IMG/VR virus record: IMGVR_UViG_3300028025_000624
Coordinates: 1-23,788 of that record
Source of the DNA: a virus
Direction: 5' to 3' (one strand)
Length of the DNA: 23,788 nucleotides
Part shown: positions 1,674-20,713 of the stretch, one piece after another
Numbering within the stretch: the first letter of the stretch is position 1
How the letters are laid out: the number at the start of each line of letters is the position of its first letter
Notes under the pieces: model-generated
The model's database searches: none
What the model saw: only the letters and a program-made list of their open reading frames with translations
Told to the model about the DNA's origin: nothing
Position numbers and translations under genes: made by a program

Positions 1674-3887
1674 TTATTTTAAGTTGAACGAATCTAGCGG
1701 TACTTTTTTACCACCTGTAGCTTCACCCTTAGGGTTCATAGCTAATGTATATAAAGCATTATACGTTGTATCGAACTTCTTTTGCAACCCTGCAAGTCTA
1801 TTTGCGTCTGGTTGCATACTTGATTGCTCAGATCTAATTTGGTCATTAATCTCGTTAAGTGACGTCTTTAGTGCCTCACGTTTATTTTGTAGTTCATAAC
1901 GAATACTTTGACTATCAGCAGATGCTATTTGCTTATCAATACGTTGACTCATAAGATTAATCTCACGATCTTTTTGTTCAAAGCCGTACCCTGCTTTTTT
2001 AACATCAAGGCCAACTGTATTTTGTAGCGTTGTATTTGCGTTTTTGGCTTCGCCTACTCTAGTGACATGGTCTGTGTACTCTTTACGTGCCGCTTGGTAT
2101 CCTGCTCTATCACCAGCCATCTGAGCTTGAATCATAGCGTTCTTAGCATCTTGTGCACTGTATGTTTCTTTACGGATAAGAGCTTCGTTGTTACGGATAT
2201 CTTTAAGTGCTGGGGCATATGCCTCATTAAACCCACTAATACCTGCACCAATACCCATAAGACCTGGCTTGTTAGCGTTCTCAAGAATTTTACCTGATGC
2301 TTGAAGTAATGCAAGACCCTTAGCTGTATCTTTCTGGCCTACTAAGTCTTCTTTCTGTTTTGCTACATCTGCCATACGCTCATCAAAAAAGTTTTTAAAC
2401 CCCATTGCTTTTTCTTTTTCGCGTTGCTTAGCTGCGTAACTTTCTTCTGTGTATGGCTTGCCTTCCGCATCTAGACCCGATGTACCAAGTTTATCTAGAT
2501 ATGAGTAATCTAAAGGTGTAGGAGTGTAATCAAATTTAGGTGTACCGCCACCAGCAAACGATATAATACCACCTTCAGCTAGAGTCCGTGTTGGTAGATT
2601 AGTCGGCGCTTCATCAATACCTGCCATCATGCTAGCCGCTTTAGAATCTCTTAAGTTATCTTCTTGGATAGCCTTACCTATAGTTGGAGGTATAGTACCG
2701 TTCTTAATTACTTGGTCTAACTGTTTTGGATTTAAGTCTTCAGCCATGCGTTGACGGTTAGCTAGGCTTGTAATACCACCACCTGCGTAAGACTTAACAG
2801 TACCGCCTTCGGCTTTCATTAGCTGCGCTGCGCCAGCGATACCAGTTCCTAGACCAGCTAGAGTGTTTAACCCAGATGGACCCGCTTGATAAGACTGCGT
2901 TGTTGTAGACTGCATCGGTAAGCCGCGTAGTAAGTTGCTGATGTTACCGAGTTGCATCATTGGGTATTGCTGTGCAGTAGCGTAATTCTGAATTGCTTGG
3001 TTAATTTTTTGTTGTTCAGCAGCTTGTTGTTGTGCACCGTATTGGTTTTGCATACCAATAATATCTTTTTGTGTATTGAACTGTTGTTGACCAAGCTGAC
3101 CTAGTGCGCCCGCTGCTTGACCTAGTTGGTTGTAACCTTGAAGTGCAGCTTGTTGACCTTGTAGACCTAAGCCAGCACCGTACTGAATATTCTTTTGAGC
3201 TGCATCGTAAGCGTTTTGATAGCCTGTACCAATCATTTGGTTCATAGCAGAGTTCATGTTACGGTTGTTTTCAGAAGCCATCAAAGCCTCACGAGAACCA
3301 CCAAACGCGCCTGCCCTAGTAGCATTACCTTGTTGTTGCTGACCTGTAATACCATACTGACGACGTGATTCTTCTAGTGCTGGATTTAGTGCACCTTGTA
3401 AGTATGGGTTCATAAATGCTTGGGTAGCATATGGGTTTGTTGCCATACCGTAATAGTTGTTGCCAGCTTGACCAGCTTGACCAGCAGTTTGTAGTGAGCC
3501 TAACCCTGCCATACCAGCCATTTGTGATGCTTGACCGAATTGACCTGGAGTTCTTAAGTTAGCTGCGCCTTGGAAAGATTGTTGTTGCATAGGACTAAAC
3601 CCAGCAACGTAGTTATTCATATCAGTGCTATATGGGGTGTACTTTTGAAATCCGCCTACTGAGCCATTAGGGTTGAACGTGTATACTTGGTTTTGTGCTG
3701 CACCAAGCATTGACTCTACGTATGGTTGTACGTATTCAGGTAAGTTTGAGTTTTGAACTGTAGTTTGTGTAGGGCCTGGGTCTCCGCCACCGCCGCCGTA
3801 AATACGACTTTTATCAGCTTTTAACTGAGTAGCAGAGTTACCTAAAGGCTCTCCCAATGCATAAAGTTCACGTCTTGAATAACTCAT
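1674..3887 (-). CDS. Internal virion / DNA-ejection protein, Gln/Ala/Gly-rich (737 aa)
   Basis: The ATG overlaps the TGA of the upstream GNAT-like gene (ATGA, 4 bp), so the start is well fixed. The N terminus (RRELYALGEPLG, then a Gly run at 31-35) is followed by about 330 residues rich in Gln, Ala, Gly and Asn. This includes a conserved-looking block at 160-215 (NPALEESRRQYGITG, ATRAGAFGGSREALMA) that I recall from internal virion proteins of environmental podoviruses. Two double-glycine motifs lie at 359-372 and 436-448. Residues 480-715 are highly charged and helical, probably coiled coil. No signal peptide or catalytic motif is seen. Its place among two other ejection-type genes, and a composition like T7 gp14/gp15-class proteins, suggest a virion protein that forms or lines the DNA-ejection channel. 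A tape-measure-like role cannot be excluded. Confidence 0.75.
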   Translation of the reverse strand: MSYSRRELYALGEPLGNSATQLKADKSRIYGGGGGDPGPTQTTVQNSNLPEYVQPYVESMLGAAQNQVYTFNPNGSVGGFQKYTPYSTDMNNYVAGFSPMQQQSFQGAANLRTPGQFGQASQMAGMAGLGSLQTAGQAGQAGNNYYGMATNPYATQAFMNPYLQGALNPALEESRRQYGITGQQQQGNATRAGAFGGSREALMASENNRNMNSAMNQMIGTGYQNAYDAAQKNIQYGAGLGLQGQQAALQGYNQLGQAAGALGQLGQQQFNTQKDIIGMQNQYGAQQQAAEQQKINQAIQNYATAQQYPMMQLGNISNLLRGLPMQSTTTQSYQAGPSGLNTLAGLGTGIAGAAQLMKAEGGTVKSYAGGGITSLANRQRMAEDLNPKQLDQVIKNGTIPPTIGKAIQEDNLRDSKAASMMAGIDEAPTNLPTRTLAEGGIISFAGGGTPKFDYTPTPLDYSYLDKLGTSGLDAEGKPYTEESYAAKQREKEKAMGFKNFFDERMADVAKQKEDLVGQKDTAKGLALLQASGKILENANKPGLMGIGAGISGFNEAYAPALKDIRNNEALIRKETYSAQDAKNAMIQAQMAGDRAGYQAARKEYTDHVTRVGEAKNANTTLQNTVGLDVKKAGYGFEQKDREINLMSQRIDKQIASADSQSIRYELQNKREALKTSLNEINDQIRSEQSSMQPDANRLAGLQKKFDTTYNALYTLAMNPKGEATGGKKVPLDSFNLK
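2544..2813 (-). repeat. Two double-glycine motifs in the 737-aa ejection protein
   Basis: Residues 359-372 (AEGGTVKSYAGGGI) and 436-448 (LAEGGIISFAGGG) share the pattern A-E-G-G, then a hydrophobic residue or Thr, a short spacer, an aromatic residue, Ala, and a second Gly pair. Near-identical motifs occur in the neighbouring 642-residue protein. They sit between the Gln-rich half and the charged helical half. Their function is unknown to me. Confidence 0.6.
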
Positions 3888-4300
3888 ATTAATTTCTCCA
3901 CTACTGTTTCAGTAGCAATAAGTCCAACTTTTTGTCTATATAATCTAACTCGTGCCCCAGAAGCATATGCTCTAATTTTAGTAGCCCCTTGAGCTTTAGC
4001 CCATGCAATTACTTGGTTAAATGTTTCTTCATCCACAACACATCTGCCACCTACAGTAGTCATCGTTGCAACCCTGTGATTAGGAAATGAGCTTACTTGG
4101 ATTGTTGCAGCCCCTATAACTTTTTCATCTTCTACTGCTACTAATAAAGTTTGTGAGCCGTTAATCAGCTGCATCTTTAATTGGTCTTCTGTGCAATCAG
4201 CACTACCTAATGCTACGTCAATTGCAGATTTAATAAACGGCCCTACTATACTCCACATTTGATGAACATGGATTGGACTTACTGTTTGTATTGTTATCAT
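3884..4300 (-). CDS. GNAT-fold-like protein of the ejection module (T7 gp13-like position)
   Basis: The 138-residue product has the pattern of a small GNAT acetyltransferase: an N-terminal helix pair, strands around LLVAVEDEKVIGAATIQV (53-70), a middle helix (92-105) and a C-terminal block GATKIRAYASGARVRLYRQK (105-124) followed by VGLIATETVVEKLI. The usual acetyl-CoA loop (Q/R-x-x-G-x-G/A) is not evident, so catalytic activity is doubtful. It overlaps both neighbours by 4 bp through ATGA junctions and lies between two ejection-type proteins. T7-like phages keep a small protein of this sort (gp13 family) next to their internal core genes, so an assembly or virion role is as likely as acetylation. 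The fold call is moderate and the function is inferred. Confidence 0.55.
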   Translation of the reverse strand: MITIQTVSPIHVHQMWSIVGPFIKSAIDVALGSADCTEDQLKMQLINGSQTLLVAVEDEKVIGAATIQVSSFPNHRVATMTTVGGRCVVDEETFNQVIAWAKAQGATKIRAYASGARVRLYRQKVGLIATETVVEKLI

Positions 4301-6225
4301 CTAGGCAAATACTTTTCTGGTTTAATTTGCTTACCTTGAGCCTTTTTACCTGTTCGTGCAGTACGTACCTTGTCCATCATTTTATATAAGTGTTTAGCAC
4401 CTGCATCTGTTGAGCCATTACCTAAGTGACTGACTACGTCAGCTGGAACTACGAACTCACCGTCTGCCAAACGTGCTGGCTGCTTATTACCAATTACTGC
4501 TGGAATATTATCTGACATGCCATCACCAGGCCCTTTTAACAATCTTGGGTTACCCCCTGCAGCATATCCGCCAAGATTATATCCAGTGATACCACCCTGT
4601 GCCATTTTCTTTTCTTCAGTTTTTGGCGGTGGCGGAGCGTATGGTGTTTGGCTTGTAATTTGGCTAAACACACGGTTAAAATCTTGTGGAGCTACACCTT
4701 GCATCATTGCATCATATGCTGGAGAAGCTACTGACTGCGCCGCTACCACTGCTGAATTAGGGTTATAGTCTGTCATAGGTACTTGCGTAGCTTGTTGAGG
4801 TTGATAAGCTTGGTATGTTTGTGGAGTTTGTTCATATACTTCAGGGCTAGCTTTAGAAACTCTAAAACTTGAGTCTAACATACTACCACCAAGCTTGCCG
4901 CCTACATCACCATCTACAGGTCTTCCGTCCGCGCCTATATACTGACGATTTTCTTGCCCACCAAATGCAGATGCCATAGCATTCATTGCACCCATGGGGT
5001 TACCTGTAGCAAAACTAGCCATAGGGTTGCCACCTTGAGTATAGTACATACCTTTATCTGAGTCATAGTATACTTGGCTTCCTTGCCCTGCACTACCACC
5101 AAAAGCATATCTAGCAACACCGCCTTCAGCCATTTTTAGTGGAGAACCCATGTATGGGTCTGTTGGTACTTCGTAGTCTGAATTAACTACCTGTGCACTT
5201 GTTGGCATTTGGCTTGGTGTCGCATACTGCGTTGTATCTAATCTACCTTGTGGATAACCTTGATTACCACCCATACCGCCTTGTGCTAGCGCTGTAATAC
5301 CACCTTGAGCATATGATTGCATTGTCCCACCTTCAGCCGCATATTTAGCACTGTAGTATGGATTAGGAGTTTCAGGGATGTATGGTGTGAAGTTATCAGG
5401 GTCATAACCGTGAAGTTTACTTTTTTCTTCTTTTTCTAGTTCAGGGATTTTTCTAGGTTCTAATGCGCCCATACCAAAACCAGCCGCACCGCCTAAACCC
5501 GCTTTAGTTAATAGGTCTTGTTTACCATACCAATCTAATCCTTGACTTGCTAGACTATCAGGTTTAAGACCTAATGCACCGCGAATACCTTGAGATGCTG
5601 TTGGTTCAGTTAATTGACTAAGTATACTAGGTTGAGCTACGTTAGATGATAACCCCGCATTTGCTGTATTTGCTAGAGCTTGTTGTTGCGCTGCTTGTGC
5701 TCCAGCATTTTCTACAATACCCTTTGCACCAAGCTGGGACATCCCGCCTAACCCTGATGTAGAAGAGGTTAGTAACCCTTCAGGATTTAAAGAATTTATA
5801 TTTACGTTCTGCATTCCACCAAGACCCGTAAGACCTTGATTAGCAGCTTGGCTAGCTTGACTAACTGATTGAGCTACAACATCATCTGCAACGTTAGCCC
5901 CTGAATTAATAGCGTTTGTAAAAGCGCTTGTGCCTGTGGTTCCTGGAACAGTTGATATTAAAGCATTCCCTGCCGCATCTTTAGCAACTTGGCCTGTAGT
6001 AGTTGCAGCACCACTAGCTGCACCGCCCATTATAGCACCTGTAATACCCGACATCGCGCCGCCAGTAATACCACCAAGCAAAGCACCTTCTAGTACATCA
6101 TCACCTGTTGCTAAAGATTTAGCGCCACCCATCGCTGCTCCAATAAGCGCAGCCTCGCCGATACCTCCACCGATGTTATATCCTGGATGTTTTAGAACGC
6201 CTATGTTAAATTTGTTGCTAAACAT
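4297..6225 (-). CDS. Virion-associated ejection-type protein, Gly/Ala-rich with conserved C-terminal domain (642 aa)
   Basis: ATG at 6225 is preceded by AAAGG about eight bases upstream; the TGA overlaps the next start (ATGA). Residues 18-75 form a Gly/Ala-rich hydrophobic segment with spaced small residues, as in membrane-inserting ejection proteins. Residues 75-260 are Ala/Gln/Asn-rich. Residues 290-560 are low complexity with Pro, Gln, Tyr and repeated double-glycine motifs (297-309, 365-377, 541-558). The C-terminal 80 residues look like a separate compact domain: KGPGDGMSDNIPA (564-576), ARLADGEFVVPADVVS (584-599), LGNGSTDAGAKHLY (601-614), then a basic tail. I recall this C-terminal block from virion proteins of several environmental phages. 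Role inferred: a structural or ejection protein. No enzyme motif is seen. Confidence 0.72.
   Translation of the reverse strand: MFSNKFNIGVLKHPGYNIGGGIGEAALIGAAMGGAKSLATGDDVLEGALLGGITGGAMSGITGAIMGGAASGAATTTGQVAKDAAGNALISTVPGTTGTSAFTNAINSGANVADDVVAQSVSQASQAANQGLTGLGGMQNVNINSLNPEGLLTSSTSGLGGMSQLGAKGIVENAGAQAAQQQALANTANAGLSSNVAQPSILSQLTEPTASQGIRGALGLKPDSLASQGLDWYGKQDLLTKAGLGGAAGFGMGALEPRKIPELEKEEKSKLHGYDPDNFTPYIPETPNPYYSAKYAAEGGTMQSYAQGGITALAQGGMGGNQGYPQGRLDTTQYATPSQMPTSAQVVNSDYEVPTDPYMGSPLKMAEGGVARYAFGGSAGQGSQVYYDSDKGMYYTQGGNPMASFATGNPMGAMNAMASAFGGQENRQYIGADGRPVDGDVGGKLGGSMLDSSFRVSKASPEVYEQTPQTYQAYQPQQATQVPMTDYNPNSAVVAAQSVASPAYDAMMQGVAPQDFNRVFSQITSQTPYAPPPPKTEEKKMAQGGITGYNLGGYAAGGNPRLLKGPGDGMSDNIPAVIGNKQPARLADGEFVVPADVVSHLGNGSTDAGAKHLYKMMDKVRTARTGKKAQGKQIKPEKYLPR
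4552..5337 (-). repeat. Three double-glycine motifs in the 642-aa protein
   Basis: Residues 297-309 (AEGGTMQSYAQGG, followed by ALAQGGMGG at 312-320), 365-377 (MAEGGVARYAFGG) and 541-558 (MAQGGITGYNLGGYAAGG) are spaced copies of the motif also found twice in the 737-residue protein. At the DNA level the copies have diverged, so the conservation is mainly of the peptide. Confidence 0.6.
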
Positions 6226-9422: not shown

Positions 9423-9797
9423 CTACTTTTTATTTTTTACATAGAACAGACTGCGTTCACCGAATAAGTAAAATCCAATAACAGAAGCAAAGTTTGATAC
9501 TTGCTCGTTAACTACCCCGCCACCTACTAACGCTAGGTAAGCCCATGTCGATAGCACGATTATACCAATAGCTGGGCGCATTAAGCGAATGATTGCTTCA
9601 ACCCAAGGATAACTAGGATTACCACCACCAGCTTCGTTCATAGTCTTAAAGAACTCTAAGTCAATCTCTTTCATCTTTGCATACTGCTCAATGGTTGCAG
9701 GCTTAAACTGGTCTGGTGCAATAAAGCGATTGATTAAAGACTTACCTAAGTCTACTGCTACTGGGCCTAAAGCCGCTAGGATTGTAATCGGGTCCAT
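9423..9797 (-). CDS. Holin candidate, 3-TM / GTA-type (124 aa)
   Basis: The start overlaps the endolysin stop as TAATG. Residues 1-25 (ILAALGPVAVDLGKSLINRF) form an amphipathic or weakly hydrophobic helix. Residues 26-66 are polar. Residues 67-96 contain EAIIRLMRPAIGIIVLSTWA, a Pro-containing transmembrane helix, and residues 101-120 (SNFASVIGFYLFGERSLFYV) form a second one. The R-x-x-RPAIG motif before the membrane helix and the FYLFGER end are what I remember of the three-TM holin family first named from gene transfer agents. The adjacency to an M15 endolysin supports a lysis role: making membrane lesions so that the endolysin reaches the peptidoglycan. A second small membrane protein at 20706-20918 is another possible holin. 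Confidence 0.7.
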   Translation of the reverse strand: MDPITILAALGPVAVDLGKSLINRFIAPDQFKPATIEQYAKMKEIDLEFFKTMNEAGGGNPSYPWVEAIIRLMRPAIGIIVLSTWAYLALVGGGVVNEQVSNFASVIGFYLFGERSLFYVKNKK

Positions 9798-10210
9798 TAT
9801 AAAGTCTTCCCTTCTTGAAAGTCATGCAAGGTTAACCCGCCTGTATATTGGCAGTGCGCTAATTCTTTAAATTTTGTCCAGCGTCCAGCCCATTCTAAAC
9901 CAACAGATTCTGCAATCTCACCACATTTTGTAAATAACGCAGTATCAGCCCACATTGCCTTGCCGTTAACTAAAGGCACAAAATCAAACGCAACCCTCCA
10001 ATTATGATAGCTTTTGCCTGCCGATGCGTTAGTTACCTTTTTCCCAGGCAAAGTGCGGCCTTGTGCGTATAACGCATTTTGTGATTCTGCATCCCTGTAA
10101 GTTGACGTAATTAGCACATCAATATTGTGTTTGGCGCAAGAAGCAATAAACTGCTCACATAGCGTTTTAACTTTAGGATGTAGGTCTTCTAGTTTGCGTG
10201 AGTTAATCAT
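9797..10210 (-). CDS. Endolysin, M15-family L-alanyl-D-glutamate / D-Ala-D-Ala type peptidase (137 aa)
   Basis: I choose ATG 10210: it overlaps the fibre stop as ATGA and has GGAGAGAG about eight bases upstream. An in-frame TTG at 10228 would lie upstream of that Shine-Dalgarno. Zinc-site motifs are visible: [16 protein letters not shown] (37-52), [11 protein letters not shown] (67-77) giving His69 and Asp76, and [15 protein letters not shown] (107-121) giving His119 with Glu116 three residues earlier in the catalytic position. These match M15 endolysins of the T5/Ply500 sort, in which a metal-dependent peptidase cuts peptide cross-links in peptidoglycan. The Gly usually found after the first His region (H-N-x-G) is Arg here, which is odd. 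No signal peptide is present, so export depends on the holin candidate encoded next. Confidence 0.85.
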
Positions 10211-12711
10211 GAAGATAACTCTCTCCAATAATCAAGAGAAGCATTTCTAGTAAAATTCATTTGGTATGTAATACCCGCTGGAATAATTGCAGTTAGCGTG
10301 GTTTTGTATCCAGCATTTGTTGCATAATTAACTTGTCGTGCTAACTCAACCCCGTTTACATATAAAATTCCACCAAAATCTCCGCTAGTTGTTGAATTTA
10401 AAATAATACTTACTTGAATTGGCCTACCTGTATTGTTCGTATACGATGTTCCCGCAACTCTTGTAGGAGTTTGCCAAGTTTGGTTTACGCCAATACTAGC
10501 AGTAGCGTTGAATGGAATTTGGGCACTTTCCCATGTAGTAACTTGAGCTGTTCCTGTTCCCGTTGCTACACCCGTTGCCGTAAATGCTGGATTGAGTGCG
10601 GTAATAGTAGTAGATGATACAATTTGGTCTGTGCTTGTAGTATACGTACCTGCCCCGCCTGTACCTGAAATAAATCCAGTAATAGTCGTTCCTGCAACAA
10701 CATTTGTACCACTAAGGATTTGCCCTATAGCAAGTCCACTACCTGCTGATACAGTTAATACATTTGAGGACCCTGTAATTTGTGTAGAAGCTACAGTTTG
10801 TGATACAGACACTGTATATGTCCCAATACCGCCTGCCCCTGTGCCTAATGCAGTGATTGTAGTGCCTGCTGTAACACCTGTCCCACTAATTGTTTGTCCT
10901 AATCGTAATGAACCTAATGCTACCGCAGTTACATTCATTGTGGTTCCAGAAATAGAAGCTGTAACTACTGCTCCATAAATATATCCTGTAACTGAAGTGG
11001 TAGTCGCACCAACTGCAACAAATCCTGCTGTTAAAGTTGTTCCTAGGGACAATATATTATATTGAGTCCCTGCAACTAATGCCGTTGCATTTACTGTTGC
11101 CCCTGGCCTTGATGTTAATACGTTATTAAGCTGACCTGGTCTTACTGGAGCTACTGCACTTGTGCTTGTAGCGCCACCTACTAAAGCAGAATTTGGAGGT
11201 ATTGTTGATAGCCCCGTGCCCCCACTAGATACACCAAGAGCGGAAAGTAAATTACTTATAGTAATATTACTAATTGTTCCACCTAAAATATTTACTGCAT
11301 TATCGTTCTGTGTGCCAAGTGTACCAATTAGTGATGAAATATTAGCCGCCCAAAGAACGTTAGGTAATTGCAATGGGGATAGATATGAAATCATTGGGGT
11401 ACGTACTGCTGTTGCCATACCGAAAGGACTGTCATTTTGTACGTTTACCCAACCGCCTGCCGTAAGTCCAGTTGCTGCTACCGCTGCATTAATCGCATCG
11501 GTTTGATTTCTTAGTGGGCCGTAAGCATTAAATAATACGGGGTTATCAACTGAACCAAGTGTTTGCGAATTACTAACAGTCCATGATAAACCTGACCCAC
11601 CTGTAATTTTTGTATTTGCAGCCAAAGAAGGTGCTGCATTTGCAGCTAAGTATTGACTATTTGTGATTGTGCCTGTTACTGAGCCCGCTACTACAGTTAG
11701 CGTTGTTCCTGAGATATAGCCTGAAAAGACTGCGTTGCCATTAGTGCCCGTGCCCCAGCTTTTAATATAGGTACCATCTGAAACTAAATAGCCGTTAACG
11801 TATTGACCTAGTTGTAGCGTATTAGAATATCCGCCTAACCCATCAGGACTAGCTGGTACATAATATTGACTTACTAGCATTACACCTGTTGTACTTGTTG
11901 ATAAGCCTATTGCACCTTCGTATGCCGCGGCGTTAGGAGTATCTGCACATGGAGCGCCTTGGAAATACGGTGACTGCATTTTGTTTTGAACGTAGTCTAC
12001 TGTAGCAATTTGTGTTAGCGTAGTTAATGCTACAATAGGTTGAGGATAATCAACTGATCCCACTGTTGAAGCTTCACTGATTGTATACGTCCCTGCTCCG
12101 CCTGTACCTGTGCCTAATGCAGTGATTGTTGTTCCGCTTGGGAACCCACTTGTCGTCCATAAAATACCTGGGTTATAAACTGTTTGCCCTACTGCAAGAG
12201 TACCTGATGACACCGATGTAATAGTTAAAGTTGTACCTGAGCAATAGCCTTGAGCAACGATAGGCACAGCGGTATATGCAGTAAATGGAGCAACTGTAAA
12301 ACAATCAGAACCTGTGCAATATATTAAGATACTTGCACCACTAGGGATAACCGCAGCGTTTCCTGAGCCTGTTAATCCGCCACCTGACCAAGTCTGCACA
12401 TTGAGATTGAATCCGCCTGACGTATTATTAACGATTACATAAGTTTTAGTTTGGCCATTAGGTACCAAAAGTGTACGAACAGCACCAGGAGTTCCATTAA
12501 CTATAAGCACTGCATTCCGTGCCTCATCAGATACCCCGTTAAGGTTTGTTAAGAGCTTGTTGGCGGTTGTTATTGTAACAGTCTGAACACCAGCAATAGC
12601 TTGTTCAAGCAGTACGCCTAAGTTATTATTAGTAGTAGTACCCCATGTACCCGACTGGTCGCCGTTACCAATTAGCTCTAACTTTAAACTGGGTGAATAC
12701 GTTGATGCCAT
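10207..12711 (-). CDS. Tail fibre protein with repeated beta modules (834 aa)
   Basis: ATG 12711 has AAGGA about six bases upstream. The N terminus ([20 protein letters not shown]) followed by [10 protein letters not shown] is a common start of environmental phage tail fibres and probably anchors the protein to the tail. Four beta modules follow at about 152-222, 328-390, 583-647 and 648-703. Residues 470-515 ([27 protein letters not shown]) look like a trimeric stalk or linker used in many fibres. The C-terminal 105 residues (from [20 protein letters not shown], 741-760, through [12 protein letters not shown] and [12 protein letters not shown] to DYWRELSS) form a terminal beta domain likely to contact the receptor. 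It lies between the large repeat fibre and the endolysin. Host recognition is inferred from architecture. Confidence 0.8.
10603..12258 (-). repeat. Four copies of a beta module in the tail fibre
   Basis: Approximate DNA positions are 12046-12258, 11542-11730, 10771-10965 and 10603-10770. The shared pattern is SGTTLTIT, a Gly-x-L-x-x-GQ strand, [18 protein letters not shown], then a T-V-x-S strand. Copies 3 and 4 are adjacent; copy 2 is the most divergent. A related lead (SPALVAGMTVFAADGTSLGT) occurs near the N terminus of the 1054-residue fibre. Such modules may be exchanged by recombination. Confidence 0.6.
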
Positions 12712-16753: not shown

Positions 16754-17176
16754 CTATGAGATTCTAAGTATGGCGTTTGATGCGTCCGCCGTTGGAAATG
16801 TAATTGTAAAGCTATTTGTTGCCGTTTTATCAGAGCCAAAATTTAGTACGGCTACAGCAAAATTTGTTGTTGCGTTATATATCAAGGCTCCTCTACATGT
16901 AAAACTAGCTGGATTCCATGTCACAGGCTGAAATGAAACGTATGCCGTTGAGCCGCTAGAGGTAGGTGGTATAATGGTTAGCTCTAGGCCCCCATCAGAA
17001 TAGCCGTTACCTGTAATTTGATTTTCATACACAAAATTAACTGTGTCAGGTCCTAAATTAGCATTAGCGTTATATAGCGCAATACCATATACATATGGTG
17101 TACCAACCGCAAAGTTTTCTAAACCTTTTAATAGGTTCTCTTTAAATATTGTACATTGCCCTTGAACGATTGCCAT
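16754..17176 (-). CDS. Small structural protein of the connector region (140 aa)
   Basis: The start overlaps the adaptor stop as TAATG. The product starts AIVQGQCTIFKENLLKGLEN and continues with a beta-rich body: YVYGIALYNANANLGPDTVN, GGLELTIIPP, AYVSFQPVTWNPASFTCRGA and a C-terminal NSFTITFPTADASNAILRIS. Similar small proteins with a Q-C-T-x-F-K-x-N-L-L-x-G N terminus occur next to adaptor genes in environmental phages. The role is unknown; by position it may be a minor tail or capsid decoration protein. No membrane segment is predicted by eye. Confidence 0.6.
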   Translation of the reverse strand: MAIVQGQCTIFKENLLKGLENFAVGTPYVYGIALYNANANLGPDTVNFVYENQITGNGYSDGGLELTIIPPTSSGSTAYVSFQPVTWNPASFTCRGALIYNATTNFAVAVLNFGSDKTATNSFTITFPTADASNAILRIS

Positions 17177-18096
17177 TATAGACCTTTATATTCCAAGCTA
17201 GTTTGACCCTTGCGATATGCATCATTGCGCTCAAGCCCATCACCAAGACGTTTAAGTTGCATTAATGATTCTTGAAACATCTTCTCATAATACGTAACCA
17301 TGTCTTGCTCGCCCTTCATGAATATAATTGCTTCACGCATAGCGCCATAAAACAAGACTGGGTCATAATTTTCACCAAGCCATGAAGTACCTGTTGAGTT
17401 AAGCACTGTACTTACTAATACAGAAAACCCTGTACCTACCCCGCCAATACTTGATGCTGCTGCAGATAATGTATTTCCTACAATATAGAGTGAACCTGGG
17501 CTATTAATCGTTACTGAAGATACGCCATTTTGTGAAACAATTACTGTAGCTGTTGCAGATGTACCTGAACCGCCTGTTAAAGGCACATTATAATAAGTAC
17601 CGTTTGTATAGTTAATCCCTGGAGTAATTGTCCCTAATGTAGATATTTTCCCTTGCACAATAGAGATTGGGTAATAAAAATAGTGTAGTTCCGTTGTGTA
17701 GTATTGGTTTGGAGTAGGTGCCATAATAGCTGACAGCTCTTCTAGATTCCCCGTAGTTGGGCCAAACACTGCATAATATTTAGGTATGCCCGTAGATGTT
17801 GGATTTGGATACGCTTCTCGAAGGAAGTTCACATCTTTATTTAGAAGGTATGAGTATTTACCTGTGCTATCAATAATAGCGATAGAATATGTTGCTAACC
17901 AATCATCAGGAAGCGAAAGATATGGGTTGTTAATAGTTAGTGTGCCTGTCACATTTTTACGGAGCGATGGCAACTGAACTGTATTGTATATACGTCTTTC
18001 GGCTTCTTGCACAAACGTAGGAATATTCGCTACGAATAGCGACTCTGTGTTTTCAGAGTAATCCTGAATTGCTTGTGATAGTTGGATGTAGTTCAT
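17176..18096 (-). CDS. Head-tail adaptor protein (SU10-adaptor / T7 gp11-like) with inserted module
   Basis: The start and stop both join neighbours by TAATG. The N-terminal half is helical and adaptor-like (YIQLSQAIQDYSE, FVQEAERRIYNTVQLPSLRK), then a strand region (LPDDWLATYSIAI, PKYYAVFG). Residues 237-306 (SWLGENYDPVLFYGAMREAI, then helices to the C terminus) fit the closing helices. Between them, residues 146-236 form a separate Gly/Thr-rich beta module (YYNVPLTGGSGTSATATVIV, VTINSPGSLYIVGNTLSAAA), which makes the protein longer than a plain adaptor. Such proteins form a ring between portal and tail nozzle. The family call rests on N-terminal motif memory; T7 gp11-like and SU10-type adaptors are the alternatives. 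Confidence 0.7.
   Translation of the reverse strand: MNYIQLSQAIQDYSENTESLFVANIPTFVQEAERRIYNTVQLPSLRKNVTGTLTINNPYLSLPDDWLATYSIAIIDSTGKYSYLLNKDVNFLREAYPNPTSTGIPKYYAVFGPTTGNLEELSAIMAPTPNQYYTTELHYFYYPISIVQGKISTLGTITPGINYTNGTYYNVPLTGGSGTSATATVIVSQNGVSSVTINSPGSLYIVGNTLSAAASSIGGVGTGFSVLVSTVLNSTGTSWLGENYDPVLFYGAMREAIIFMKGEQDMVTYYEKMFQESLMQLKRLGDGLERNDAYRKGQTSLEYKGL
17389..17661 (-). other. Inserted beta module within the adaptor (residues 146-236)
   Basis: This segment interrupts the expected continuity between LHYFYYPIS (137-145) and WLGENYDPVLFYG (239-251). Its pattern (YTNGTYYNVPLTGGSG, ATVIVSQNGVSSVTI, GTGFSVLVSTVL) is a repeat type I recall from fibre and baseplate proteins of marine phages. 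The insertion could project from the connector. Boundaries are approximate. Confidence 0.5.
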
Positions 18097-18440
18097 TAGC
18101 CCATTTTTCCACTAATCTTACGACCTTTAGTAGCAGCACCGTAGCCACGCATCTCGCCTACACCGTGTGGATTCATTACTTCTTTTTTACCGCTGATATT
18201 TACGTCCATAGCAAGTGTAGAACGAGTGACATCCTTAGCTGCAAGCGTGTTTGGGTTAACGCTAGCTTTATAGTCTGCGTTGTTAGTGTTAGGCATAGGT
18301 TGTTTATATACGCCAATATCGTTACCACCACCTGATGGATAGCTAAACCCTGTGTATGCACTAGCATCTTTGTTTTCTTTAGCATGCCCTAGTGGGTATG
18401 CATCAGCGCTTGTTGGTTTTACAAAATCATTTTTAGCCAT
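18096..18440 (-). CDS. Small virion-type protein with conserved basic C terminus (114 aa)
   Basis: ATG 18440 follows AAGGA by about seven bases, and the stop overlaps the adaptor start (TAATG). The N-terminal part is polar (AKNDFVKPTSADAYPLGHAK); the C terminus is basic and Gly-rich (MRGYGAATKGRKISGKMG, 97-114), a tail I have seen on many small phage proteins. No membrane segment or enzyme motif is seen. Because it lies in the connector cluster and shares the Lys/Gly tail style with other small genes here, I infer a minor virion or DNA-associated role. The family name is not known to me. Confidence 0.6.
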   Translation of the reverse strand: MAKNDFVKPTSADAYPLGHAKENKDASAYTGFSYPSGGGNDIGVYKQPMPNTNNADYKASVNPNTLAAKDVTRSTLAMDVNISGKKEVMNPHGVGEMRGYGAATKGRKISGKMG

Positions 18441-18449
18441 GATAGTTCC

Positions 18450-18626
18450 TTATTTTTGGTTTGCTACACGAGCTAGGTTACGGCCCACTGATTTCATCGC
18501 ATCAGATGAAACGCCTTTTGAACCTTTGCCTGATTGGATGCCAACTTTTTTACCGTCGTCACCTAAGTTCTTACCTTTTGTTTTGCCTGATTTTGTGATG
18601 CCATCAGCGCCTGATTTATAAGCCAT
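18450..18626 (-). CDS. Very small Lys/Gly-rich basic protein (58 aa)
   Basis: This short gene is easily overlooked. ATG 18626 has an AGGAG seven bases upstream, and the TAA at 18450-18452 lies nine bases before the next start, whose AAGGA Shine-Dalgarno directly abuts it. The 58-residue product begins AYKSGADGITKSGKTKGKNL and ends SVGRNLARVANQK. It is strongly basic with repeated SGK/KGK motifs and no hydrophobic segment. It fills an otherwise unexplained 200-base gap in a packed operon. The motif GKTKGK recurs in two other small proteins of the window. Function unknown; nucleic-acid binding or virion association is a guess based on charge. Confidence 0.7.
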   Translation of the reverse strand: MAYKSGADGITKSGKTKGKNLGDDGKKVGIQSGKGSKGVSSDAMKSVGRNLARVANQK

Positions 18627-18642
18627 TTTGAAACTCCTAATA

Positions 18643-19032
18643 TTAAGTTGTTGTTATCGTTACTATACCTACTTGACCAATTGCAATCAAGTCATTTGGT
18701 GTTAATACTGTATCAAATCCACTTGCTCCACCTACAGGTGCCCAGCCCCACTGAATCTGACGGCTACCATCTTGGGCATACCCATCTGTTCCTAATCCTG
18801 ATACTGCATAACTGGTATCTGGGCGTGGTTCTCTAACCGCTTGTGGGTCATTAACTGGGTACATACCTAGTTGTAGTTGCGGTTGGTCAGGGTCCCAGCA
18901 CTCAAAACAAACCTTAATACTAACCTGCTTGGTCTTAATCGTTAGCTTCTTAAGCTCTGATAACTTATATCTTTGTCCACATCTATCGCACTGGGCAATA
19001 CTGTGCTTACCACTAGCGTACTTGGTTGGCAT
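18643..19032 (-). CDS. Zinc-ribbon protein of the connector region (129 aa)
   Basis: The start overlaps the upstream adaptor stop as TAATG. Two CxxC pairs (CDRCG at 15-19 and CFEC at 42-45), spaced by a basic strand, form a probable zinc ribbon. Next comes a conserved-looking stretch WDPDQPQLQLGMYPVND with PREP-like residues, then a Gly/Thr-rich C-terminal part. I recall this zinc-ribbon followed by a W-D-x-x-x-P-Q motif from structural modules of environmental podoviruses, where its exact role is not known to me. It lies between the two adaptor-like genes, so a connector or tail component is plausible. DNA binding is an alternative suggested by the zinc ribbon. Confidence 0.65.
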   Translation of the reverse strand: MPTKYASGKHSIAQCDRCGQRYKLSELKKLTIKTKQVSIKVCFECWDPDQPQLQLGMYPVNDPQAVREPRPDTSYAVSGLGTDGYAQDGSRQIQWGWAPVGGASGFDTVLTPNDLIAIGQVGIVTITTT

Positions 19033-19754
19033 TATCTTGTATAACTCATGTTACGTGGAACGAAACGAATACTTGCTTTCTCACGGTCTTCCGCCGCTGC
19101 TAGTTCAAACTGCTGTTCGTAGTCTGCTTTAAGTGCCATTGAACGCGCTGGGTCTACACCTGGAATCTTCATACTTAAATAATAAGCTAGTCCTGCGACC
19201 ATGCATGTAAGAAAACGGAATGGAATATCCTGAGTATTAACACCATCACCAGCATCCTGTATTCTACGTAAGCGCCAATAAACAAAAATATATTGCCCGT
19301 CTGGAGCATTAGGTGTAGGCCAGACATTGATTTGCGGGTTCTTAATTCCACTTGGGTTTGTAGCTCCTGAACGGCGATTAATCCATACTTGAATAGGGCG
19401 ACCTTGTGTTAACTTGTTTGGGATAGTTGAATAGGTAGACTCTGAGATACGGTTGATATTAATATCAGTTTGTTGTAACGTGCCCTCTTGGGTTCTAATT
19501 ACTTGGTCTAGTAAGTCAATGGTATCAACAGGTAAATCATATGTAGCTTGGCCTGTAACCATATTAATCTGGCCCTGCTCAATAGTCCATAAGTTAATCC
19601 CACGGTTTGCCCACTCAATAGTAAGTAGGTTTAAACTACGACGCGCTGTACGGAAATCATAACCTGTACGTAGCTCTGAACCACAACGCTCAAAAGCCTC
19701 TTCAATGAGGTCATTTAAATCTAAGTTAAACGCTGTAGTAGCTGTAGTTGTCAT
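19032..19754 (-). CDS. Head-tail adaptor candidate (P22 gp4-like) (240 aa)
   Basis: ATG 19754 begins directly after the TAG of a tiny upstream ORF. The product opens with LDLNDLIEEAFERCGSELRT (11-30) and continues with RRSLNLLTIEWANRGINLWT (39-58), a helix pair like the helical core of P22 gp4-type tail accessory proteins. Strands follow (NMVTGQATYDLPVDTIDLL, PIQVWINRRSG, INVWPTPN, YIFVYWRLRRI), then a C-terminal helical region (RFLTCMVAGLAYYLSMKI). A ring adaptor between portal and tail is the inferred role. A second, different adaptor candidate is encoded 940 bases downstream, so the two may form stacked rings. Confidence 0.65.
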   Translation of the reverse strand: MTTTATTAFNLDLNDLIEEAFERCGSELRTGYDFRTARRSLNLLTIEWANRGINLWTIEQGQINMVTGQATYDLPVDTIDLLDQVIRTQEGTLQQTDININRISESTYSTIPNKLTQGRPIQVWINRRSGATNPSGIKNPQINVWPTPNAPDGQYIFVYWRLRRIQDAGDGVNTQDIPFRFLTCMVAGLAYYLSMKIPGVDPARSMALKADYEQQFELAAAEDREKASIRFVPRNMSYTR

Positions 19755-19884: not shown

Positions 19885-20142
19885 TTATTTTTTCGCAGTC
19901 TTTAAAGAATCAATAAAATCTTGTTTTGAAGGAGCGCCTTTGCTACCTACCTTACGCATCTTTTCGCCAGACCCGCCAGCAATACGTTTTTTCTTGGCAT
20001 TGATGTTAGCATAGAGACCTGGTAGTTTTACCTTACCCCCCTTTTTAAACTCGGTAAAGTCCGTGTCATCACGGCGTGGTGTCTTCTTGCCTGACGGCAT
20101 CTTTGATGGATTAATATCACCCATGCCACGAGAGGCTCTCAT
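19885..20142 (-). CDS. Small Lys/Gly-rich protein (85 aa)
   Basis: The start overlaps the preceding stop as TAATG. The sequence is basic: MRASRGMGDINPSKMPSGKK at the N terminus, FKKGGKVKLPGLYANINAKK in the middle and a helical end (APSKQDFIDSLKTAKK). The KKGGKVK motif recurs in the 111-residue protein two genes upstream. The GLYANINAKKKRIA phrase is one I associate with small virion-cluster proteins. No hydrophobic segment is seen. Role unknown; possibly a DNA-associated or minor virion protein. Confidence 0.6.
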   Translation of the reverse strand: MRASRGMGDINPSKMPSGKKTPRRDDTDFTEFKKGGKVKLPGLYANINAKKKRIAGGSGEKMRKVGSKGAPSKQDFIDSLKTAKK

Positions 20143-20375
20143 TACATCATCTTCCCGCGAGTCTTACCGCGTTGTGCACAACCATCTGCACGAGATGAAG
20201 CTGAACCGCCTTTAGCCATTTTTTTCATGGTTTTACCACCACACATACCACCTTTAGCGAATGGACGTGGTTTAATTGGTTTACCATCTGGGCCTGTTGG
20301 AGGGCCATCATCTTCCGCTTCAGGTGGAAGTGGAGGTGGAGATTTTTTCTTTTTTCTTTCTAACATTTCATCCAT
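20142..20375 (-). CDS. Small Pro/Lys/Gly-rich protein with RGKTRGK C terminus (77 aa)
   Basis: An acidic and proline-rich first half (KKSPPPLPPEAEDDGPP, 11-27) is followed by a basic Gly-rich half: FAKGGMCGGKTMKKMAKGGS and SSRADGCAQRGKTRGKMM (60-77). The C-terminal motif is one I remember from many environmental phage proteins, and a shortened form ends the 111-residue protein encoded just upstream. Two Cys residues are present but not as a metal site. It overlaps the next gene by TAATG. Function unknown. Confidence 0.6.
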   Translation of the reverse strand: MDEMLERKKKKSPPPLPPEAEDDGPPTGPDGKPIKPRPFAKGGMCGGKTMKKMAKGGSASSRADGCAQRGKTRGKMM

Positions 20376-20377
20376 GA

Positions 20378-20713
20378 TTAACAGACCTTTCCTTTAGTTT
20401 TACCGCGGACTTCAATGCCGCCGCCTCTAGCCATCTTCTTAACCTTACCACCTTTTTTAAGGGTTTCTAAGTCAGTTTTTTTACCACCATGCATTTGTTT
20501 GTCATGCATCCCAACGGCTTTCTTGACCATTTTCTTGTCTTGAGCCATATCCATTTTATCTTTAGCCATACCGCCTCCTTTAAATTTTTTACCTTTATCA
20601 GCGGCAGCAAAATCTTTACCTACTGACTGTTTGATACCGACCTTCTTTGCAAACTTTGGATTGTTTGCGATTGCTTCCATAAAATTATGTTGCTTCTTAG
20701 ATGAACTAGGCAT
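20378..20713 (-). CDS. Small Lys/Met/Gly-rich virion-cluster protein (111 aa)
   Basis: The 5' end overlaps the gene before it by 8 bp. It begins PSSSKKQHNFMEAIANNPKF (2-21) with AKKVGIKQSVGKDF next, an N terminus I recall in many small phage proteins. The middle is Lys/Met-rich (KDKMDMAQDKKMVKKAVGMH). The C terminus has LKKGGKVKKMARGGGIEVRG then KTKGK. It carries the same double-glycine style as the ejection proteins, but basic instead of acidic. No membrane helix. The role is unknown; charge suggests DNA or membrane-phosphate contact, which is only a guess. Confidence 0.65.
   Translation of the reverse strand: MPSSSKKQHNFMEAIANNPKFAKKVGIKQSVGKDFAAADKGKKFKGGGMAKDKMDMAQDKKMVKKAVGMHDKQMHGGKKTDLETLKKGGKVKKMARGGGIEVRGKTKGKVC

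Follow-up and report, generated by a model that had tools for sequence, protein, structure and literature searches.

The virion-gene block on the minus strand of this 23.8-kb virus record (the window, 23,788 nucleotides in all) raises the question of why one short peptide, carrying two pairs of glycines, should recur in several of its proteins. Five copies were confirmed between positions 2544 and 5337, all on the minus strand. The 737-residue protein p737 carries AEGGTVKSYAGGG (2775–2813, residues 359–371) and AEGGIISFAGGG (2544–2579, residues 437–448), whilst the 642-residue protein p642 (4297–6225) carries AEGGTMQSYAQGG (5299–5337, residues 297–309), AEGGVARYAFGG (5095–5130, residues 366–377) and AQGGITGYNLGG (4567–4602, residues 542–553). 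The first p642 copy runs on as ITALAQGG, the whole stretch being YAAEGGTMQSYAQGGITALAQGG. An earlier note on this DNA had described five occurrences of A[EQ]GG[TIV]..[SRG][YF]A.GG outside any alignable domain; the copies stood, but the literal expression and, for the last p642 copy, the placement outside domains did not. The expression fits two of the five copies (p737 residue 359 and p642 residue 297), one per protein, because the spacing of the glycine pairs varies from five to seven residues and the last p642 copy reads YNLGG instead of YA.GG. By inspection, A[EQ]GG[TIVM].{2,3}[FYN].{1,2}GG covers all five.

The motif as a protein-level unit

At its simplest the motif is [FYLM]A.GG with a hydrophobic residue behind it, and it is often doubled as A.GG[IVT]..[FY]A.GG, with a hydrophobic/aromatic core between the glycine pairs that is typically I/V-I/V-x-F/Y and is conserved in divergent proteins. 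The residue directly before A in the five window copies is K, L, A, M and M. Synonymous glycine codons vary among the copies, indicating that conservation acts on the protein and not on the DNA. A DNA repeat or recombination seam was rejected as the cause of the motif on the same ground, other phages using all four glycine codons.

The glycine and alanine content of p642 (15% and 13%, respectively) would favour an accident of composition. Against this, the literal expression was absent from 2000 composition-preserving and 1000 dipeptide-preserving shuffles of p737 and p642 alike, and a near-relaxed form reached its observed count in none of 2000 and none of 1000 such shuffles, respectively. 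The glycine-richer p1054 and p464 of the same window carry no copy by either strict form, and conservation is position-specific, leaving such an accident scarcely credible. In its DNA form the motif gave three matches in the window versus 0.00 in shuffled DNA.

Copies mark the seams of an ejection gene cassette

Homologue searches with p642 and p737 recovered 57 loci each, and copies recur in the p737 and p642 counterparts of the near relatives (L002–L012); the motif is thus retained in related phages, the second p642 copy in L002–L005. Comparison of these loci showed that two genes, A and B, separate in most relatives, are naturally fused in p737. Module A (2853–3887, minus strand, residues 1–345) is a gene of its own in most relatives, and module B (1677–2774, minus strand, residues 372–737) corresponds to the gene that follows. 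Residues 40–357 of p737, a helical core, matched the profile of PHROG 4287, annotated 'DNA ejection protein' (E 1.3e-13); p737 differs from that family in having module B fused behind the motif. A weak homologue in phage phiM5 is annotated as found in the particle proteome.

In most relatives the A protein (p737 residues 1–380) ends in a tail of the kind AAQGGTVKSYAGGGLVSLALDNVMKEKS (L189); the separate B gene begins only a few bases away, with AGGGIVAFAGGG-like copies near residues 80–140. Profiles of A, B and C, the last being the p642 gene, detected 32 A-B and five C-A fusion reading frames. With the seam taken as −10 to +50 around the A end, and the expectation drawn from the remaining windows of each protein, A.GG marked this position in 28 of the 32 nonredundant A proteins that are fused, versus 5.5 expected (binomial p 8e-18). 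Among 100 unfused A tails it did so in 41, versus 13.9 expected. A motif unit occupied the C/A junction in all five C-A fusions (L057, L066, L119, L121 and L169). Within B, the double motif lay just behind the N-terminal helices in 73 of 90 nonredundant proteins; the B consensus reads [FYM]A[AGDESP]GG[IVM][IVL][AGS][FY][ADE].GG.

The window copies follow this pattern. Copy 1 of p737 sits on the A/B seam, and its glycines G361 and G362 reach 90% conservation or more in an alignment of 35 A proteins; copy 2 falls right behind the N-terminal helices of module B. In p642, the A.GG of copy 1 is the C-family consensus, and copy 3, with conserved columns at G544, G545 and G552, forms the N-terminal edge of a C-terminal module. 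The earlier note had called p737 and p642 unrelated ejection proteins; they are instead modules of one C, A, B cassette, which fuse together in other phages.

All five copies also lie in low-confidence AlphaFold segments between better-predicted blocks. In p737 (35 sequences, mean pLDDT 63), copy 1 lies in segment 324–374 and copy 2 in 423–469, each below 50, with helical blocks predicted at 152–321, 372–421 and from 462 onwards. In p642 (63 sequences, mean pLDDT 54), 357 of 642 residues fall below 50, including segments 293–324 (copy 1), 365–382 (copy 2) and 537–550 and 553–559 around copy 3. Low confidence in these models may partly stem from the shallow alignments, glycine content or an absent partner.

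The C-terminal module of p642 resembles tape measure proteins

The module behind the last p642 copy, GPGDG.SD.IPA..LADGEFVVPADVV (4300–4602, minus strand, residues 542–642), contains many invariant columns, so this copy stands at the edge of an alignable domain. It is related to a C-terminal module of tape measure proteins. Comparison with a small tape measure alignment (A4) gave an hhalign probability of 97.6 (E 3.8e-12); A4 was picked by the motif, so its similarity is partly selected, whereas matches from PHROGs and tblastn were not so selected. The PHROGs matches were weak but consistent and mostly to tape measure families. By tblastn, the module matched two phage proteins labelled tape measure (2e-5 and 8e-5), a label that may rest on the C-terminal module alone; both (L060 and L061, in GB2A and DSL-LC04) adjoin ejection-type genes. 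A phmmer search of the module against the PDB gave no match, and the tape measure profile matched solely tape measure chains there, plus one weak kinesin match. Neither Pfam nor NCBIfam gave a family match for p737, for p642 or for its C-terminal module.

Like the C-termini of the siphophage tape measure proteins T5 pb2, lambda gpH and JBD30 gp46, in which [FY]A.GG-type units precede a GE[FY]VV or GE.G.E..P module, p642 combines FA.GG units and a GE[FY]VV-type module at its C-terminus. Unlike them, it is only 642 residues long, is predicted to be mostly disordered with few helices in its AF2 model in place of a long helical ruler, and belongs to an ejection cassette. Its gene is flanked by fibre-like genes and, in the other direction, by an acetyltransferase gene and the A/B ejection gene, not by the tail tube/chaperone and distal tail genes that enclose a tape measure gene. 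Among ten window proteins scanned with Pfam, none was identified as a tail tube protein or a distal tail protein.

Tape measure processing in T5 coincides with the motif

The T5 tape measure protein pb2 is cleaved after R1127, as determined by LC-ESI-TOF mass spectrometry, and its C-terminal fragment remains in the tail tip (PMC10038345). Residues 1128–1133, immediately behind this cut, read AEGGMM; across its 1219 residues pb2 has only two A.GG, and its GG pairs number five. R|A..G was kept in eight of eight pb2 relatives, down to about 37% identity, and A.GG in seven, the other having ASSG. This was the sole measured tape measure cut compared, and the coincidence was noticed after the motif was known. 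Relative to the T5-type site R|A.GG, all five window copies have the A.GG part and none has the preceding arginine.

Other tape measure proteins were variable. In lambda gpH, FATGG and YATGG separate the body from a C-terminal coiled coil (residues 818–842) that has been resolved in the tail tip. JBD30 gp46 has FASGG and HATGG, and its predicted cut at R1066 does not fall at a GG pair. The motif was rejected as a universal tape measure feature, Mu and P2 being without it and HK97 having the degenerate form FAKGAG only. Residues 1128–1150 of T5 pb2 (P0002) also include an H-G-T-E stretch that matches a described metallopeptidase motif and is part of the GE.G.E..P tape measure module; its histidine is missing in Proteus phage 1, Vibrio SJ1, phi3 and 70E34-3, among the relatives compared (L361–L368). 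On these sequence comparisons a zinc-peptidase reading of the pb2 motif looks doubtful.

Distribution and small basic proteins

Among 471 called reading frames of six related phage records, some not complete, the double motif occurred in A, B and C genes only, consistent with clustering at ejection genes, and single units were found mostly in A, B and C genes and in three small proteins. These are basic proteins encoded on the minus strand of the window: p85 (19885–20142, 85 residues) has FKKGG, with relatives often reading YAEGG.VGLYAN; p77 (20142–20375, 77 residues) has FAKGG and MAKGGSASSRADGC; and p111 (20378–20713, 111 residues) has KKGGKVKKMARGGGIEVRGKTKGK. The basic motif variants reported between 19885 and 20713 therefore exist, and [KAM].GG was kept in 65 of 65, 50 of 52 and 52 of 54 nonredundant relatives of the three proteins, with MAKGG retained in relatives of p77 and p111. 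Besides MAKGG, the proteins at 20142–20713 share a C-terminal RGKT[KR]GK(M/V) signature, and related C-termini were also observed at 18096–18440 and 18450–18626.

Searches with the DNA form of the double unit recovered at least 120 stretches from IMG/VR, the unit lying in the longest frame in 113 of the 121 matches listed. In bacterial and archaeal genomes it lay in the longest frame in 50 of the 124 matches listed, at least 20 of these with a tape-measure-type GE..EA.IP module. Shuffles, relatives and clustering therefore agree that one short peptide is common to several virion-region proteins beyond chance. We found no description of the motif in the open-access literature, and the element, real and widespread in phages, is apparently undescribed and reads best as a boundary linker.

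Possible roles of the motif

We interpret the motif as a boundary linker of genome-delivery proteins and consider hinge action its best-supported role, with about an even chance of being correct. The peptide, its core held between two glycine pairs, would connect modules at four kinds of joint: A/B, C/A, that between the N-terminal helices of B and the remainder of that module, and that between the C body and its C-terminal module. Its glycines would provide a flexible, exposed hinge that may allow the modules to separate or to thread singly through the narrow tail channel. A plain hinge needs no conserved I/V-I/V-x-F/Y core, so a more specific role is likely, and the core suggests that the hinge may also be recognised by a partner or protease. 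Given that the T5 tape measure protein is cut at the equivalent place during tail assembly, the hinge would double as a processing site in at least one lineage. Several observations run against the linker reading: the T5 link involves a single site seen post hoc, with its arginine absent from the window copies; copies without any seam occur at unfused A C-termini and in the small basic proteins; and the motif is missing from Mu and P2 tape measure proteins and degenerate in HK97. The common peptide, its conservation and its clustering partly support the earlier interpretation of a shared use.

Two rivals of the hinge are live, and neither it nor they are mutually exclusive. A host protease may cut p737 and p642 at the motifs during assembly, releasing A, B and a C-terminal piece of C, which elsewhere are separate genes. 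A cut at p737 copy 1 would restore the split-gene layout, the T5 cut falls exactly ahead of an AEGG kept in relatives, and lambda gpH, described as processed in work cited by PMC10038345, has its two units ahead of the C-terminal coiled coil. Of the uses proposed in the earlier note, processing gains most from the T5 site; however, outside the T5 relatives both the residue before A and the x of A.GG are variable, the cut predicted at R1066 of JBD30 is not at a GG pair, and searches of 20 related records for S78, ClpP-type and C39 protease families were negative, so we regard processing in this phage as possible but doubtful. The GG-bracketed core might alternatively add a beta strand to, or fit a groove of, one virion component shared by these proteins (for instance portal, nozzle or tube wall), and so keep several internal proteins in place. 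This would account for the hydrophobic/aromatic core conserved across divergent proteins and for the presence of the unit in A, B and C as well as, within the same phages, in the three small proteins, and it has a precedent in the beta-strand augmentation used by lambda tail-tip proteins (PMC10721106). Yet AlphaFold predicts no strand at the motifs, and in the small proteins the core changes to KV or SAS; docking is accordingly rated unlikely.

A tag that sorts internal proteins into the procapsid would fit the spread of the unit over two virion gene blocks, in each of which it recurs, but the unit is also found in siphophage tape measure proteins, outside the head, making this role highly improbable. 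Equally little credit is due to a Gly/Ala/Phe-rich, fusion-peptide-like segment acting on membranes during ejection: whilst B copies read AGGGIVAFAGGG and T5 pb2 is called fusogenic in the title of Boulanger 2008, charged or polar versions (KAEGGTVKSYAGGG, KKGGKVKKMAKGG) are common and the core spans only 4–6 residues.

Known double-glycine systems offered partial likenesses. The T4-type prohead protease site has the consensus hydrophobic-x-E|G, and the LAEGG and MAEGG of the motif resemble such sites and capsid targeting sequences, but the motif glutamate is not conserved. Cleavage after this residue was rejected on that basis, and neither S78 (PF04586) nor ClpP-type (PF00574) proteases were found in the 20 related records (32–79 kb, none certified complete). 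C39 double-glycine leaders have similar paired glycines, but the motif here is not an N-terminal leader; C39 processing was likewise rejected, with C39 peptidase genes found in none of the same records, all possibly incomplete. If the motif is cut in this phage, a host or unrecognised protease must therefore act.

Returning to the hinge, we tentatively propose, as a reading with a minority chance of holding, that an as yet unnamed hinge-and-cut element is general to the DNA-delivery proteins of tailed phages, the split sites of siphophage tape measure proteins corresponding to the sites at which podophage ejection proteins join or split, and where evolutionary fusion or separation has occurred. 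Lambda and T5 tape measure proteins are reportedly processed during tail assembly. An element shared by the T5 cut and podophage ejection fusion seams would yield testable cut or hinge predictions in many phages, and the motif provides an annotation handle for ejection cassettes missed by Pfam and NCBIfam.

Neighbouring genes

Between genes C and A, at 3884–4300 on the minus strand, lies a GNAT-like acetyltransferase gene. Of 183 A genes, 90 have a relative of this gene on their upstream side at a distance of no more than 1.5 kb, and in a Rhizobium phage an acyltransferase adjoins a C-like gene. Directly downstream of p737, a large open frame on the minus strand (1–1660), truncated by the window end, is likely a further internal virion protein. 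Elsewhere in the window, two separate matches to the SU10-type adaptor family were detected (17176–18096 and 19032–19754), and a VanY/M15-type peptidase, likely an endolysin, is encoded at 9797–10228.
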